NCBI GenBank assembly: GCA_945878065.1
Contig: CAMDXA010000022.1
Coordinates: forward strand, 1-34,257
Reading direction: 5' to 3'
From: Bordetella parapertussis
GTDB taxonomy: Bacteria > Pseudomonadota > Gammaproteobacteria > Burkholderiales > Burkholderiaceae_C
Length of the DNA stretch: 34,257 bases
Part shown: positions 7,672 through 13,785 of the stretch, one piece after another
Position numbering within the stretch: the stretch's first letter is position 1
Layout of the letters: every line of letters starts with the position of its first letter
Translations under genes and position numbers: made by a program
Notes under the pieces: generated by a model
The model's input: the letters and a program-made list of their open reading frames with translations, nothing else
Databases searched by the model: none
What the model was told of the DNA's origin: nothing

Positions 7672-8673
7672 TCAGTCGAAACTGCCGATACGCGACGGGT
7701 TGGAGAAATTCATCCAGACAAAAAAGGCTTTGCCGACGATATTTTTGTCAGGCACAAACCCCCAATAGCGCGAATCCAAGGAATTGTCGCGGTTGTCACC
7801 CATCATGAAGTAATGACCAGCAGGCACTGTGCATTCCAAGCCTTCGACACTGTAGGTACAGTTTTCTTTGAAAGAAAAATCTTCGATACCGCTGACAAAG
7901 TTGGGCGCACTCTCTTCATTGAGCAAGCGAATTTTGCGCAAGGTCTTCATATCAGCGGGCGCGCTGCCAATCGGCATGTCTTCTTCGAACTGTTTGCTGT
8001 AGCGCATATTGTCCGCATCAAAAAACTCAGGGATGGCCACTTTGCTAACGGGCTGGCCATTGATGGTCAATTTTTTGTTCAGATAAGCAACTTTGTCCCC
8101 TGGCACGCCCACCACGCGCTTGATGTAATCAAGGCTGGGCTTGGGCGGATAGCGAAATACCATCACATCGCCACGCATGACCGGGGTGCCGGATGTGACT
8201 TGGTAATTGATGACGGGCAATCGGATACCGTAGTGGTACTTGTTCACCAAGATCAGATCGCCGACATGCAAGGTGGGAATCATGGAGCCGGAAGGTATTT
8301 TGAACGGCTCAAACAAAAATGAGCGCAAGAAAAATACCGCTGCGATGACGGGAAACAAGCCGGCGGTCCAATCCATCCACCAAGGTTGGCGCAGCAGTTC
8401 TTCACGCGAACGGTGAAAAGCCTCTTCGTTGTCGGCTGCGGTGATGCCTTGGTTTTTCAATTCAACCAGGCGGCTGGCATGCTGGGTATCGAGTTGCATC
8501 ACCGCGGCGCGGCGGCGTGGCAGGTAAAACAATTGTTCAGCCAGCCAATACACACCGCTCACGACCGTGGCCAGGAACAACAGCAATGCAAAAGAACCCT
8601 CAATGCGGCCGCTGTACCAACCGATGGCGTAAGCCACAAAGCCACTGAGGACGATGGCGGTGAGGGTCGACAT
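7672..8673 (-). CDS. lepB: Signal peptidase I
   Basis: Inner-membrane serine protease that removes signal peptides from exported proteins. The protein is 333 aa. There are two hydrophobic N-terminal segments (about 4-20 and 26-50), a cytosolic loop rich in charged residues, and a third hydrophobic segment just before the catalytic site (FPVIAAVFFLRSFLFEPF). The nucleophile is Ser130 in PSGSM and the general base is Lys185 in DYIKRVVGVPGD. The late box MGDNRDNSLDSRYWGFVP is intact. The ATG at 8673 overlaps the lepA stop as TGATG; a TTG one codon upstream is less likely. lepA-lepB coupling is conserved across proteobacteria. Confidence 0.97.
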   Translation of the reverse strand: MSTLTAIVLSGFVAYAIGWYSGRIEGSFALLLFLATVVSGVYWLAEQLFYLPRRRAAVMQLDTQHASRLVELKNQGITAADNEEAFHRSREELLRQPWWMDWTAGLFPVIAAVFFLRSFLFEPFKIPSGSMIPTLHVGDLILVNKYHYGIRLPVINYQVTSGTPVMRGDVMVFRYPPKPSLDYIKRVVGVPGDKVAYLNKKLTINGQPVSKVAIPEFFDADNMRYSKQFEEDMPIGSAPADMKTLRKIRLLNEESAPNFVSGIEDFSFKENCTYSVEGLECTVPAGHYFMMGDNRDNSLDSRYWGFVPDKNIVGKAFFVWMNFSNPSRIGSFD

Positions 8674-10481
8674 CAATCTTCCACCTGCAATATCGCCAAA
8701 AAGGCTTCTTGGGGCACTTCCACTGATCCGATTTGTTTCATGCGTTTCTTACCTGCTTTTTGTTTCTCTAGAAGTTTGCGCTTGCGGCTGATATCGCCGC
8801 CATAGCATTTTGCCAGCACGTTTTTACGCAAGGCTTTGATGGTTTCTCGTGCAATGATGTTCGCACCAATCGCGGCTTGAATGGCCACGTCAAACATTTG
8901 ACGGCTGATGATTTCGCGCATCTTGGCCACCACCGCACGGCCTCGGTACTGAGATTGGGCACGGTGCACGATGATAGACAGTGCATCAACCCGTTCGCCA
9001 TTGAGCAAGATGTCGACTTTCACCACATCGGCCGCGCGGTATTCCTTGAACTCGTAGTCCATGGAGGCATACCCTCTGCTGACGCTTTTGAGCTTGTCAA
9101 AGAAGTCGAGCACGATTTCGCCCAGCGGCATTTCGTAAGTCAGCATGACTTGGCGGCCGTGGTAGGCCATGTTCAATTGCACACCGCGTTTTTGGTTGGC
9201 CAAAGTCATGACCGCGCCCACATAGTCCTGCGGCATGTACAAATGCACGGTGACGATGGGCTCGCGGATCTCTTCCATCTTGCTGGCTTCGGGCATCTTG
9301 GAAGGGTTCTCCACCATCACCAATTCACCATCTGCACGCATCACTTGGTAGACCACGCTGGGCGCGGTAGTGATCAGGTCTTGGTCAAACTCCCGCTCAA
9401 GGCGTTCTTGCACGATTTCCATGTGCAACAAACCTAAAAAACCGCAGCGAAAACCAAAGCCCAGCGCTTGCGATACCTCAGGCTCATAGCGCAAGGAGGA
9501 ATCATTGAGCTTGAGTTTTTCCAATGCGTCGCGCAAGGCATCGTATTGGTTGGCTTCTGTGGGGTACAAACCGGCGAATACCTGTGGCTGTATTTCTTTG
9601 AAGCCGGGCAAAGCCTGTTCTGCGGGTCCCAAGTTGTTGGGCAGCTTTTTTTCCAATGTGATGGTGTCGCCCACTTTGGCCGCTTGCAGTTCTTTGATGC
9701 CCGCAATGACATAACCCACTTCACCGGCTTGCAAAGCATCGCGCGGTTCGTTGGCCGGCGTGAACACACCAAGGTTGTCGGCGTTGTAGACCGTCCCGGT
9801 GGCCATCATTTTGAAACGCTCACCTTTGTTCAGATGTCCGTCAACCACGCGCACCAGCATGACCACACCTACGTAGGTGTCGAACCAACTGTCAACGATC
9901 ATGGCGCGCAGCGGCGCGTCCGGCTTGCCTTTGGGTGCCGGGATTTTGGCCACCACGGCTTCGAGGATCTCTTCAACGCCCATACCGGTTTTGGCGGAAC
10001 ACGGGATGGCATCGGTGGCATCGATGCCAATCACGTCTTCAATTTCAGTTCTGGCGTTGTCAGGATCGGCAGAAGCCAAATCCATTTTGTTGAGCACGGG
10101 CACCACTTCAACACCAAGGTCTAGCGCGGTATAGCAATTGGCCACCGTCTGCGCTTCCACACCTTGGCTGGCATCCACCACCAGCAACGCGCCTTCGCAT
10201 GCTGACAACGAACGGCTGACTTCATATGAAAAATCGACATGACCGGGCGTGTCGATCAAATTGAGGTTGTAAATCTGTCCGTCTTTGGCTTTGTAACGCA
10301 GTGCAGCGGTCTGTGCCTTGATGGTTATCCCACGTTCTTTTTCGATGTCCATCGAGTCCAGCACCTGTGCTTCCATCTCTCTGTCGCTCAAGCCGCCGCA
10401 GCGCTGAATGATGCGGTCTGCCAGCGTAGATTTGCCGTGATCTATGTGCGCGATGATGGAAAAATTTCTGATGTGGTTCAT
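8673..10481 (-). CDS. lepA: Elongation factor 4 (back-translocating GTPase LepA)
   Basis: Ribosome-binding translational GTPase (EF4) affecting initiation and stalled or mis-translocated ribosomes. The protein is 602 aa, full length. G1 is AHIDHGKST at the extreme N-terminus, the switch region contains [12 protein letters not shown]3 is DTPGHVDF and G4 is NKMDL. LepA-specific C-terminal segments are present, for example [20 protein letters not shown] and [20 protein letters not shown]. The start is the ATG at 10481 ([16 protein letters not shown]); a TTG at 10484 is one codon upstream. It has no strong Shine-Dalgarno. A strong Rho-independent terminator ends only 46 bases before the start codon (see 10527-10557), so either a promoter in this short gap or readthrough must feed lepA. 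Confidence 0.98.
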
Positions 10482-10526
10482 CAATGCAAGCTGTTAAGTA
10501 ATTGAATTTACAGAGGAGAAAGCCAT

Positions 10527-10557
10527 AAAAAAGGGCGCGTCAGGTGATGACGCGCCC
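10527..10557 (-). terminator. Rho-independent terminator just upstream of lepA
   Basis: GGGCGCGTCA (10533-10542) and TGACGCGCCC (10548-10557) form a perfect 10-bp stem around a five-base loop. Read leftward the stem is followed at once by six T residues (10532-10527), the textbook intrinsic terminator. Read rightward there is no T-run, so it acts on leftward transcripts. It must end either a short RNA made from this gap or mucD readthrough. Confidence 0.88.
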
Positions 10558-10667
10558 GGAACCAACAATCTATGGCAACTGCGATAGTTGGGACTTCATT
10601 GTAGGCAGAAAGCCCGCCGAGGTGGCCCCCAAAAAGCCTTGCCCAACCCCGTTGCAAGTCAACGATA
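10527..10667 (-). ncRNA. Candidate structured small RNA or attenuated lepA leader
   Basis: Leftward RNA of roughly 135-140 nt, inferred from a promoter-like TTGTTA/TATGCT pair (10694-10667) and the perfect terminator ending at 10527. Between them the sequence folds into a long arm: GTTGGG pairs with CCCAAC (10642-10647 with 10587-10592) and, below an internal loop, GCAAC pairs with GTTGC (10651-10655 with 10575-10579). Within the apical part GGCGGG-CTT-TCTGCC forms a six-pair hairpin with G-U pairs. There is no convincing open reading frame. I cannot assign it to a known RNA family; it does not look like tmRNA or a tRNA, and I see no 6S resemblance. I saw no alternative antiterminator partner for the terminator stem, which slightly favours a free small RNA over a riboswitch. 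Confidence 0.5.
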
Positions 10668-10694
10668 GCATATTTATACACAGTTTATTAACAA
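10667..10694 (-). promoter_or_regulatory. Possible promoter for the pre-lepA RNA
   Basis: Minus-strand TTGTTA (10694-10689), a 16-base spacer and TATGCT (10672-10667), within an AT-rich run that also contains TATAAA at 10678-10673. Transcription would begin near 10660-10666. The spacer and TATAAA overlap a perfect DnaA-box match at 10674-10682. This is a consensus match only. Confidence 0.4.
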
Positions 10695-10779
10695 TTCAGT
10701 TTAAGAAAAATCAGGATAACTTGTGGGTGATCTGTGGATCAATATGTACAAGTCGACAATCATGCCATATTGTGAATAA
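10674..10779. promoter_or_regulatory. AT-rich cluster of DnaA-box-like sites
   Basis: Two sites match the R-box consensus TTATNCACA exactly: TTATACACA at 10674-10682 (+) and TTATTCACA on the minus strand at 10771-10779. TGATCCACA on the minus strand at 10733-10741 has one mismatch, and TCACCCACA at 10722-10730 has two. The intervening sequence is AT-rich (TTATTAACAATTCAG, TTTAAGAAAAATC), unlike the GC-rich genes around it. This resembles a small DnaA-binding regulatory or titration site; it is unlikely to be oriC because dnaA, rpmH, parAB and gyrB are absent. Confidence 0.4.
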
Positions 10780-10951
10780 ATTGCGGTGACATATACCCAG
10801 ATTCACAGTTTGATACCCTGACTTAGATTGAAATTCATTTTTTTTGACACCGAAGTTAGCTTGCGCTTACATCAAAAATATTTTTCAGGCCGTTGGAAGA
10901 ATCCATCATTCGCCCAAATCAAGGGTTAACCCTTAACTCGGATGAACTGGC
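10780..10951. other. Rest of the mucD-lepA gap, with a 14-base palindrome
   Basis: AT-rich non-coding sequence downstream of the mucD stop. It contains AAGGGTTAACCCTT at 10921-10934, a perfect 14-base palindrome 17 bases beyond the mucD stop, and an A/T-rich imperfect inverted repeat (TTTTTGA near 10840 with TCAAAAA near 10872). Neither has the T-tract orientation of a leftward terminator. The short open frames here look random. Confidence 0.4.
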
Positions 10952-12436
10952 TCATCGGGGTCGAATCACGGTGTATTGCGACCACTCGCCACGACGCAAC
11001 AACACGCTGACTGCCTTGGCTTTGTCCAGTTTGGACAGGACCTGGGCGAATGCTTTGGTGTCATTGACTTCAGAGTTGGCGATTTGCGTGATCACATCCC
11101 CCTCACGGATACCGGCTCGCAACGCTGGCTCAGCCACAGCATCCACCCTGACGCCACCGCGCAATTTCAATTCTTTTTTCAAGGCCTCAGACAGATCACT
11201 GACCGTCAAACCCAGCAGTTGCGCGGCGGTGTTGGTCTCCGGTGCTTTTTCTGCGGCAGCGGGCTTGGCAGCCACTTTGTCCGGCTCAAACTCGCCCACC
11301 GTGATGGCCACTTCACGGGTCGCACCACGGCGCAACACGGTGAGCTTGCTGTTCGTGCCGGGCTTGGTATTGCCCACGGTACGCGGCAAATCAGAGGATT
11401 TTTCGATGGTCTTGCCATCGAACTTGAGAATGATGTCGCCCGCCTCGATGCCGACTTTTTCAGCCGGCGAACCAGGCTCAACGCTGCTGACAAATGCACC
11501 TTGGGGTTTGGCCATGCCCAGCGACTCGGCCACTTCTTTGGTGACTTCACCAATGCCCACACCAAGCCGTCCGCGTTGCACGCGCCCACTGGCACGCAGT
11601 TGGTTGCTGACATTGGCAGCCTCGTCAATCGGAATAGCAAAGGAAATGCCCATAAAGCCGCCGGAGCGGGAATAAATCTGGCTATTGATACCAATGACTT
11701 CGCCGCGCATGTTGATCAAGGGTCCACCTGAATTGCCGGGGTTGATGGCCACATCGGTCTGGATGAATGGCAAGTAGTCACCGGTGTCACGGCCTTTGGC
11801 ACTGACGATACCCGCGGTGACGGTGTTCTCTAAACCGAAGGGAGAACCAATCGCCATGACCCACTCGCCCACTTTGAGTTTGTTCGGGTCGCCCAGTTTG
11901 ACAGGAGGCAAGCCGGTGGCTTCAATTTTCACCACCGCTACATCGGTGCGTTTGTCAGAGCCAACAATGCGGGCAATGAATTCGCGTTTGTCGGTCAGGG
12001 TCACAATGACTTGCTGTGCGCCGTCCACGACATGGGCATTGGTCATGATGAAGCCGTCTGCCGTCAAAATGAAGCCGGAGCCCACACCGCGAGGCTGGTC
12101 CTCGGGCTGCTGCTGGGGCCGGTTAGGGCGCTGTTGGCGCGGTGCATTCGGCATTGGGACACCAAAAAACCGGCGGAACAACTCTTGCATCTCTTCGTCT
12201 TGCGGATCACCACCGGGTGGATTTTGGGCCGCCGTCTGTGGCGCCGCTTTGTCGACAGTACGGATATTGACCACGGAGGGGCCTACTTGCTCAACCAAAT
12301 CGGTGAAGTCTGGCAATGTGCGGTTTTGCGCCAAAGCCTGCGACTGCATACCGGGCAGGCCAGCCGCAGCGAAAGTCACCAGCAACACTGCCAGTAAAGA
12401 AAAAACATGTTTGCGAACGTACAAAGAATGAAACAT
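10952..12436 (-). CDS. mucD: Periplasmic serine protease, Do/DegP (MucD) family
   Basis: Envelope quality-control protease and chaperone of the HtrA family. The protein is 494 aa from the ATG at 12436, chosen because it begins a clear signal peptide (VRKHVFSLLAVLLVTFAAAG, cleavage probably after QALA) and has GGGAG about ten bases upstream; the open frame continues 31 codons further without homology. The trypsin-like domain shows the triad His135 (TNAHVVDGA), Asp165 (RTDVAVVKI) and Ser236 (GNSGGPL). A Gln/Pro/Arg-rich linker lies at 95-116. Two PDZ domains follow, beginning near GRLGVGIGEVTKEVAES and LLGLTVSDLSEALK. It sits between fabF and lepA. In many betaproteobacteria rpoE, rseA and rseB precede it; none is present here. 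Confidence 0.95.
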   Translation of the reverse strand: MFHSLYVRKHVFSLLAVLLVTFAAAGLPGMQSQALAQNRTLPDFTDLVEQVGPSVVNIRTVDKAAPQTAAQNPPGGDPQDEEMQELFRRFFGVPMPNAPRQQRPNRPQQQPEDQPRGVGSGFILTADGFIMTNAHVVDGAQQVIVTLTDKREFIARIVGSDKRTDVAVVKIEATGLPPVKLGDPNKLKVGEWVMAIGSPFGLENTVTAGIVSAKGRDTGDYLPFIQTDVAINPGNSGGPLINMRGEVIGINSQIYSRSGGFMGISFAIPIDEAANVSNQLRASGRVQRGRLGVGIGEVTKEVAESLGMAKPQGAFVSSVEPGSPAEKVGIEAGDIILKFDGKTIEKSSDLPRTVGNTKPGTNSKLTVLRRGATREVAITVGEFEPDKVAAKPAAAEKAPETNTAAQLLGLTVSDLSEALKKELKLRGGVRVDAVAEPALRAGIREGDVITQIANSEVNDTKAFAQVLSKLDKAKAVSVLLRRGEWSQYTVIRPR

Positions 12437-12455
12437 CTTTTTTGATCTCCCAAAA

Positions 12456-12484
12456 GGTATAGCAACAGTTTTAACGCGAAACAA
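12456..12484 (-). promoter_or_regulatory. Possible mucD promoter
   Basis: Minus-strand TTGTTT (12484-12479), 17-base spacer, TATACC (12461-12456), twenty bases before the mucD start codon. It resembles a weak housekeeping sigma promoter rather than a sigma-E promoter (no GGAACTT/GTCAA pattern seen). It would give a very short leader that still contains the GGGAG ribosome site. Confidence 0.35.
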
Positions 12485-12514
12485 GCATTCGAGGCGGACG
12501 CGCTTCAATAGCCC

Positions 12515-12526
12515 CTGACATGTCAG
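12515..12526. repeat. Perfect 12-base palindrome upstream of mucD
   Basis: CTGACATGTCAG, in the 104-base fabF-mucD gap and about 30 bases upstream of the possible mucD -35 element. The position suits a regulator site, but no binding protein can be named from the sequence. Confidence 0.35.
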
Positions 12527-12540
12527 CATTTGCTGCCAGA

Positions 12541-13785
12541 CTAGATACGCTTGAATAAAAGCGTACCGTTGGTCCCGCCGAAACCGAAATTGTTTTTCAC
12601 GGCCACGTCAATGCGCATGTCGCGTGCCGTGTTGGCGCAGAAATCCAGATCACATTCGGGGTCGGGATGCTGCAAATTGATGGTGGGGGGAGCTTTTTGC
12701 TCATGCACCGCCAGCACTGTGAACACGCTTTCGATCCCGCCAGCGCCTCCCAACAAATGTCCGGTCATGGACTTGGTGGAACTGATGACCATCTTGTGCG
12801 CATGGGCACCGAAAGCCGCTTTGATGGCGTGGGTTTCATTGATGTCGCCCAAGGGCGTGGATGTGCCGTGTGCGTTCAGGTAATCCACTTGGTCTGGTGA
12901 CATTTGCGCATTTTTCAAAGCAGCCAACATAGAGCGACGCGGGCCGTCCATATTGGGCGCAGTCATATGACCCGCGTCAGCACTGCGGCCATACCCTGCA
13001 AGTTCGGCGTAAATGCGCGCACCTCTGGCTTTGGCGTATTCATACTCCTCCAGCACCAGCACGCCTGCGCCCTCGCCCAAAACGAACCCATCACGGTCTT
13101 TGTCCCAGGGGCGGGAAGCGGTTTTGGGGTCGTCATTGCGGGTAGACAAAGCGCGCATGGCGGCAAAGCCACCCAAGCCCAATGGCGAAATAGTGGCTTC
13201 CGCACCACCGGCGACCATGACATCCGCGTCACCGTATTCGATGATGCGGCCGGCTTCGCCAATGCTGTGCAATCCCGTGCTGCATGCTGTGGCGATGGCC
13301 AGATTGGGGCCCTTGAAGCCACAACGCATAGAAACATGACCGGAGATCATGTTGATGATGCTGGCGGGCACAAAGAAAGGAGAAATACGCCGGGGGCCGC
13401 GCGCCATGAGTTCGTCCCGCATGTTCTCGATCAGCGGCAAACCACCAATACCCGAGCCAATCAGGCAACCGATACGGTGCGAGAGTTCTTCGTCCAACGC
13501 GTCGCCAATAGGCAAGCCGGCATCGGCCACGGCCTGCAAACCCGCGGCCACACCCAAATGGATGAAGCGGTCCATGGTGCGGGCATCCTTGGGCGAGATG
13601 TACTCATCCAAGTTGAAGTTTTTAACCTCACCTGCGAAATGACAGGCGAAAGCAGACGCATCAAAATGGGTGATGGTGTCTATGCCGGATTGACCGGCCA
13701 GAATTTGCTTCCAGGACGCTTGGGCAGTGTTTCCAACCGGAGACACACAGCCCAAACCTGTCACGACAACGCGACGACGACTCAT
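12541..13785 (-). CDS. fabF: 3-oxoacyl-[acyl-carrier-protein] synthase II
   Basis: Elongating condensing enzyme of type II fatty-acid synthesis, joining malonyl-ACP to acyl-ACP. The protein is 414 aa, full length. It starts [18 protein letters not shown]. The active-site Cys168 lies in [14 protein letters not shown], and the two catalytic histidines in [11 protein letters not shown] and [12 protein letters not shown]; the C-terminal [14 protein letters not shown] is typical of KAS II. It lies 14 bases downstream of acpP, the usual acpP-fabF pairing. It is the last fatty-acid gene of the leftward series. Confidence 0.98.

Follow-up and report, generated by a model that had tools for sequence, protein, structure and literature searches.

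Why should an intrinsic terminator stand directly in front of a gene that is transcribed in the same direction? The question is raised by lepA in the window, the whole 34,257-nt stretch of Bordetella parapertussis DNA analyzed here (contig CAMDXA010000022.1 of assembly GCA_945878065.1). A mucD/degP-like gene (12529-10952, minus strand) is followed by a 470-base gap and then by lepA, downstream of which lie, on the same strand, lepB, rnc, an era-like gene, and recO; in Bordetella pertussis, lepA is described as the first gene of the rnc operon in PMC8386462. The terminator, GGGCGCGTCA-TCACC-TGACGCGCCC at 10557-10533 of the minus strand, has 10 pairs, 8 of them G-C, and its TTTTTT runs to 10527; the lepA ATG at 10481 is 45 bases 3' of this U-run. 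The initial annotation had seen the 10-bp stem and the six T residues correctly and had named the right pair of options, a small RNA or a lepA attenuator. A terminator pattern scan finds 8 sites vs. 7.1 expected, a count not above chance, among which the site in the lepA leader has the longest stem. The evidence favors an independent trans-acting small RNA (sRNA) superimposed on a lepA leader terminator, which itself has the wider distribution of the two: the likely reading is a ~67-nt RNA that would mask the start codons of SWIB, HC2, and HU-like mRNAs, with a control by DnaA suggested by upstream sites and with lepA expressed by read-through.

Which RNA would end at this terminator? Its putative promoter has a conserved -10 box, TACAAT, and no recognized -35 element; because of the position of this box (Table 1), the start, placed from sequence, is likely at 10593-10590, which makes the RNA ~67 nt long. 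The promoter-like pair that had been proposed ~140 bases upstream disappears on closer analysis: a consensus scan gives no minus-strand promoter in 8000-13000, and the TATAAA-like string is part of TGTGTATAA, kept in relatives as a DnaA-box-like site and not as a promoter. The proposed GTTGGG/CCCAAC arm is absent from the fold predicted for the claimed span, where its GTTG/CAAC part pairs locally as a small hairpin, and of 75 sequences, counting the window, 7 have GTTGGG in the 60 nt preceding the conserved core; instead of pairing around the RNA, GTTG/CAAC is conserved as a dyad upstream of the promoter. The 141-nt extent folds with z = -1.97 (8 of 200 shuffles are as good), vs. z = -5.18 (0 of 200) for 10596-10527, where two hairpins are predicted in ~67 nt. 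What stands of the initial annotation is an unnamed RNA before lepA with a real terminator, while its promoter, 5' end, length, and structure had to be redrawn; the observation is partly confirmed and its interpretation partly supported. Its failure to place the RNA in a known family is borne out, as no Rfam 15 family reaches its gathering score anywhere in the window; with no such match, the RNA would define a new sRNA family. A leader peptide starting from the ATG in TACAATG was considered and rejected: the frame over the loop varies between groups, and some loci have no ATG.

Table 1. Features of the lepA leader region, in window coordinates.
Feature	Position	Strand	Basis or remark
lepA, first gene downstream	8676..10481	-	TIGR01393; probably transcribed by read-through
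Predicted ~67-nt small RNA	10527..10593	-	Conserved unit, fold z = -5.18; 5' end placed from the -10 box
Intrinsic terminator, 10-bp stem + six U	10527..10557	-	Sequence, terminator scan
Hairpin 1 (CCAAC/GTTGG, ATC/GAT)	10562..10591	-	Fold and pair counts
Loop GCAGUUGCCA, putative seed for pairing with target start codons	10573..10582	-	Loop conservation and target sites
-10 box TACAAT	10598..10603	-	TACAAT, in a few TAGAAT/TAAAAT, precedes the core in LepA loci
GTTG/CAAC dyad, possible operator	10651..10663	-	Gap of 5 in the window; most relatives have 8
DnaA-box-like site TGTGTATAA, proximal	10674..10682	-	Box counts in relatives
DnaA-box-like site TGTTAATAA, distal	10685..10693	-	Box counts in relatives

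How constant is this unit? A LepA search provided the best 80 loci among the matches listed, from Comamonadaceae and the Roseateles/Rubrivivax/Aquabacterium group, each with up to 1000 nt of upstream sequence (shorter at contig ends). The core, GCAGTTGCC, lies upstream of lepA in 74 of these best 80 loci and GCAGTTGCCA in 73; GCAGTTGCC is missing from L031, L035, L037, L045, and L073, and from L043, which has just 81 nt of upstream sequence. Most loci read ..CCTACAATGAAG-CCAAC-TATC-GCAGTTGCCA-..-GTTGG-TTCA-GGGCGCGTC..GACGCGCCC-TTTTTT. Most loci have 42-65 nt between the U-run and lepA; the distance is 93-156 nt in loci of the Roseateles/Rubrivivax/Aquabacterium group, falls to 19 nt in L054 and 30 nt in L068, and is 0 in three loci. 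Since this spacing varies, the RNA is the constant thing, not its distance to lepA. Where the lepA ATG directly follows the U-run (L046:1534-1610, L065:2930-3005, and L070), there is no space for a separate leader. In L037 (Rhodoferax antarcticus), the element is altered: a palindromic GGCAGCTGCC replaces the GCAGTTGCC loop, and the SWIB gene still starts with ATGGCAACTGC. Beyond the LepA loci, model R2 was run on 399 genomes of the order with stricter filters and 12 candidates scored per genome, a setting in which misses are possible; it gives strong matches (72.6-90.8 bits) in 12 genomes, all 12 between mucD and lepA. Seventeen weak matches in 17 genomes (26.4-30.9 bits; 16 further genomes and one of the 12) have neither lepA nor mucD within ~1.5 kb on either side and were discarded as family members. 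Model R1 finds one strong match in each of six genomes, and the RNA family looks single-copy and syntenic.

Is its structure conserved as well? When 31 sequences are aligned with no reference to structure, pairing holds in 96.8% of pair cells, and three pairs are doubly changed (4 cells). Three such pairs are reached by 3 of 500 shuffles, sliding by +1 yields 2 pairs with 6 cells, and inner pairs break in 2-7 of the 31 sequences. By itself, the covariation from this alignment is weak. A covariance test of the redrawn structure on related mucD-lepA gaps used 47 sequences (alignment A4), which were aligned with the model and are thus biased toward the structure: 97.5% of pair cells pair, and 7 of 17 pairs are doubly changed (30 cells), values that, like the covariation score, 0 of 500 shuffles match (1 of 500 matches the number of pair types) and of which the best slid control reaches 3 pairs and 10 cells. 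Conserved structure with covariation is thus found on the model-aligned set and is weaker on the unaided alignment. The Roseateles group has CCAACAA/TTGTTGG in place of CCAAC-TATC/GAT-T-GTTGG, with the loop unchanged. This loop has an unpaired probability of 0.45-0.95, and opening its ten bases has a computed cost of 0.6 kcal/mol, vs. -17.0 kcal/mol for a 10-bp duplex of loop and target.

What might control the RNA? The DnaA box consensus is TTATNCACA, with the fifth base free. In most sequences, boxes of the form TGT(G/T)NATAA lie at -111/-110 and -100/-99 from the core, 11 bp apart; the proximal one matches TGTGNATAA with at most one mismatch in 57 of 73 sequences and the distal one in 58 of 73, the fifth base being free as in DnaA boxes. 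The stretch from -125 to -85 from the core contains at least one box (at most one mismatch) in 68/73 sequences and two in 48/73, vs. 1-20 of 72 for neighboring windows, and perfect boxes occur within 420 nt upstream in 50/77 vs. 8/770 shuffles. Box spacing is constant relative to the core and varies relative to lepA. Among loci of the order that lack the core, 2/57 have such a box within 400 nt, and boxes are absent from the five LepA loci without the exact core (0/5); L049, L054, and L068, in which the core is present and the box absent, are counter-cases. Between boxes and promoter, about -84 from the core, 52/73 sequences have a GTTG-N8-CAAC dyad (with any gap of 3-12, 53/73 vs. 12/730 shuffles), a possible operator of some regulator. 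The tandem boxes, ~90-100 bp upstream of the predicted start point, suggest DnaA control. A further perfect DnaA-box-like site, TTATTCACA, is found at 10779-10771 (minus strand) in the AT-rich mucD-lepA gap; the boxes also raised the possibility of a replication origin, which was rejected as the GC skew has no switch at the gap.

And what would the loop recognize? The segment GCAGUUGCCA(U) is antisense to (A)UGGCAACUGC, a start-codon region (AUG GCA ACU GC) of which the loop is the exact complement. In 17 genomes with the sRNA, the loop complement TGGCAACTGC occurs at 10-37 sites each, so the majority of copies lie away from target starts. When 76 TGGCAACTGC sites from four genomes were examined for context, those recurring at start codons across genomes belonged to K/A-rich genes beginning MATAKK; six representatives are two SWIB (PF02201), two histone H1-like HC2 (PF07382, NF038053), and two HU-like (PF00216) proteins. 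The search pattern ATGGCNACNGCNAARAAR, which leaves the codons free, was applied to 40 genomes, of which 35 have the exact core, and to 300 genomes of the order. In sRNA-positive genomes, ATGGCAACTGC is exact in 65 of 70 MATAKK starts, and each of the 32 genomes with a pattern match has at least one exact site, vs. 16 of 71 genes and 13 of 59 genomes among those of the order that lack a strong sRNA match. The sRNA-positive genomes form one broad group, so that the contrast is not phylogenetically independent and is overstated by its Fisher p of 1e-18. Among sRNA-positive genomes without a pattern match, G445 and G457 carry the exact site at the start of SWIB genes with a different continuation, and G448 has no SWIB match. 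SWIB starts are exact in all 11 sRNA-positive genomes with a match. In the five genomes without the exact core, as judged at the lepA region, two SWIB starts are exact (L073 and R. antarcticus), and in the other three the site is changed to ACA (two Extensimonas and the L045 genome). The SWIB genes L428, L430, L433, and L438 have an in-frame ATG further upstream, and their start is a predicted one. L001 has a 70-nt element identical to the window's and a LepA 95% identical; in its genome, a SWIB gene and a K/A-rich MATAKK gene (cut by the contig end) both have the exact site. A cis target near lepA was sought and dismissed: most GGCAACTGC occurrences in LepA loci are simply the complement of the element itself, and seven loci have an additional copy. 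The loop is an accessible, conserved seed complementary to unlinked mRNAs.

Could this complementarity be fortuitous? If ATGGCAACTGC starts were kept for another reason, such as efficient initiation or inheritance, the loop match would be a coincidence, and the RNA would have other targets or bind a protein. There is something to this: GCA is the commonest codon 2 also in genomes without a strong sRNA match (42/71), the full site is present in the 16 genes counted there, and part of the site conservation is by descent because the target genes have a common N-terminal protein sequence. The pattern of constraint nevertheless makes coincidence unlikely. In genes of sRNA-positive genomes, codons 2 and 3 have wobble entropies of 0.32 and 0.29 bits, and codons 4-6 of 1.15, 0.97, and 0.93 bits, vs. 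1.61 and 1.81 bits and then 1.65, 0.89, and 0.98 bits in other genomes; the synonymous constraint ends at the pairing boundary. Codon 3 is ACT in 67/70 vs. 25/71 genes, a codon that is rare further down in 25 target genes (9 of 139 Thr codons; GCA makes up 260 of 1182 Ala codons) and in other GGAG-ATGGCNACN contexts (9/144, or 10/145 with G139:C52, not a known target, in the first 150 matches listed from five sRNA-positive genomes, many of them not true starts). The site also survives changes in the residues that follow it, as in MATAAKK, MATATKK, and MATAKTP.

A stronger rival takes the terminator at face value: the element would be a lepA attenuator, a 5' leader alone, in which most transcripts end, with the upper hairpin as the sensor of a signal and lepA mRNA as the product of read-through. 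To this reading we give somewhat short of an even chance. Of 59 genomes sampled from the order, 32 have a terminator in the 150 nt preceding lepA (30 of the 57 that lack the sRNA), vs. 6/295 shuffles, 2/59 at -300 to -150, 3/29 before lysS, and 2/30 before fabF; in a class sample of 28 genomes (all but one of 29 loci), it is found in 4, vs. 1/140 shuffles. Of the 32 terminator leaders in the order, 26 have TANAAT at a distance of 11-30 nt upstream of the stem (the background in 40-nt windows is 8/354). In 19 of them, no more than 25 nt separate the end of the stem from the lepA ATG, which leaves no place for a second promoter, so that lepA would be transcribed through the terminator. The -10-like box and terminator persist at the five LepA loci where the core is missing; this frame, present in core-less loci and genomes, thus has a wider distribution than the sRNA and probably predates it as an old betaproteobacterial lepA leader. 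By sequence, then, lepA transcription must pass a leader terminator, and lepA is probably expressed by read-through; a Shine-Dalgarno-like match precedes lepA in 2/59 genomes and in 1 of the best 80 loci listed, vs. 20/30 for fabF. What an attenuator leaves unexplained is the near-invariant loop, its fit to start codons, and the boxes that keep step with the core; the minimum-energy folds, which were the folds examined, contain no antiterminator. Attenuation is probably true of the frame, incomplete for the core-bearing family, and compatible with the sRNA explanation. A simpler idea, that this is the ordinary terminator of mucD with structure upstream of it by chance, would fit a mucD that is upstream on the same strand, but the gene ends at 10952, ~395 bases away, and hairpin and loop recur in 74 of the best 80 loci listed, making this reading extremely improbable.

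How, then, would the trans-acting sRNA work? From what has been computed (a conserved structure, a near-invariant loop, exact complementarity, synonymous constraint in the targets, and upstream boxes), we infer that the RNA is made at this size, pairs in the cell, and represses its targets, that DnaA controls it, and that lepA is read through. RNA polymerase would run from just 3' of TACAAT to the intrinsic terminator. Formed by CCAAC/GUUGG and AUC/GAU, the first hairpin would expose the loop, GCAGUUGCCA, for pairing with UGGCAACUGC over the start codon of mRNAs for nucleoid-type proteins, most of which begin MATAKK. By analogy to known sRNAs, of which IhtA-hctA is the closest, pairing would block 30S binding and less protein would be made. 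Through the tandem boxes, DnaA may act on the sRNA promoter, and lepA would be transcribed by read-through past the terminator. It is a more tentative idea, possible rather than probable, that an sRNA born in an old lepA leader ties the replication initiator DnaA to chromatin-protein synthesis as a convergent counterpart of IhtA-hctA. If true, these proposals would define a testable regulon of one loop, one 10-nt site, and three DNA-packaging protein families, extend start-codon masking of histone-like genes beyond Chlamydia, possibly link DnaA to nucleoid composition, and provide a case of an sRNA apparently built into a pre-existing mRNA leader with its promoter and terminator. A separate question arises from the leader: how is the synthesis of LepA (EF4) set when lepA, nearly devoid of Shine-Dalgarno sequences, lies behind a promoter-proximal terminator in about half of the genomes sampled?

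How does this RNA compare with known ones? A survey of the open-license PMC literature yielded no sRNA upstream of lepA, and lepA does not occur in the main text of PMC5688073, PMC3521395, or PMC4603805. NcS25 (RF02869) of Burkholderia is likewise short, with hairpins on its 5' side and a terminator rich in GC; it is the best weak Rfam match spanning the element, at 17.1 bits vs. a gathering score of 46, and membership was rejected. According to PMC10117139, NcS25 adjoins a porin gene and represses a porin. The S17 family (RF02278) of Bordetella and Burkholderia is also betaproteobacterial, with a short form of ~70 nt that represses several genes, and differs in that it lies between BP3151 and coq7 and is processed by RNase E (PMC11722255); membership in this toxic sRNA family was rejected, as 10470-10960 has no covariance match at E <= 10. 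The Burkholderiales-1 candidate motif (Weinberg 2010), from the same order, is listed without an Rfam accession (PMC2864571). The nearest parallel is IhtA of Chlamydia trachomatis (PMC4355289): on the mRNA of hctA, a histone H1-like gene, its hairpin loop covers the AUG (CAUGGCG in IhtA-hctA, AUGGCAACUGC here) and leaves the Shine-Dalgarno unpaired, as is predicted here, and it likewise has a 3' intrinsic terminator. At the sequence level, a loop over the AUG of a histone-like mRNA is what the present element has. The two RNAs differ in pairing length (7 nt in IhtA vs. 10-11 nt here), size and shape (107 nt and three stem-loops vs. ~67 nt and two hairpins), targets (hctA and CTL0322 vs. three protein families), and phylum. 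The ~67-nt betaproteobacterial RNA would thus work like IhtA without being a member of its family.
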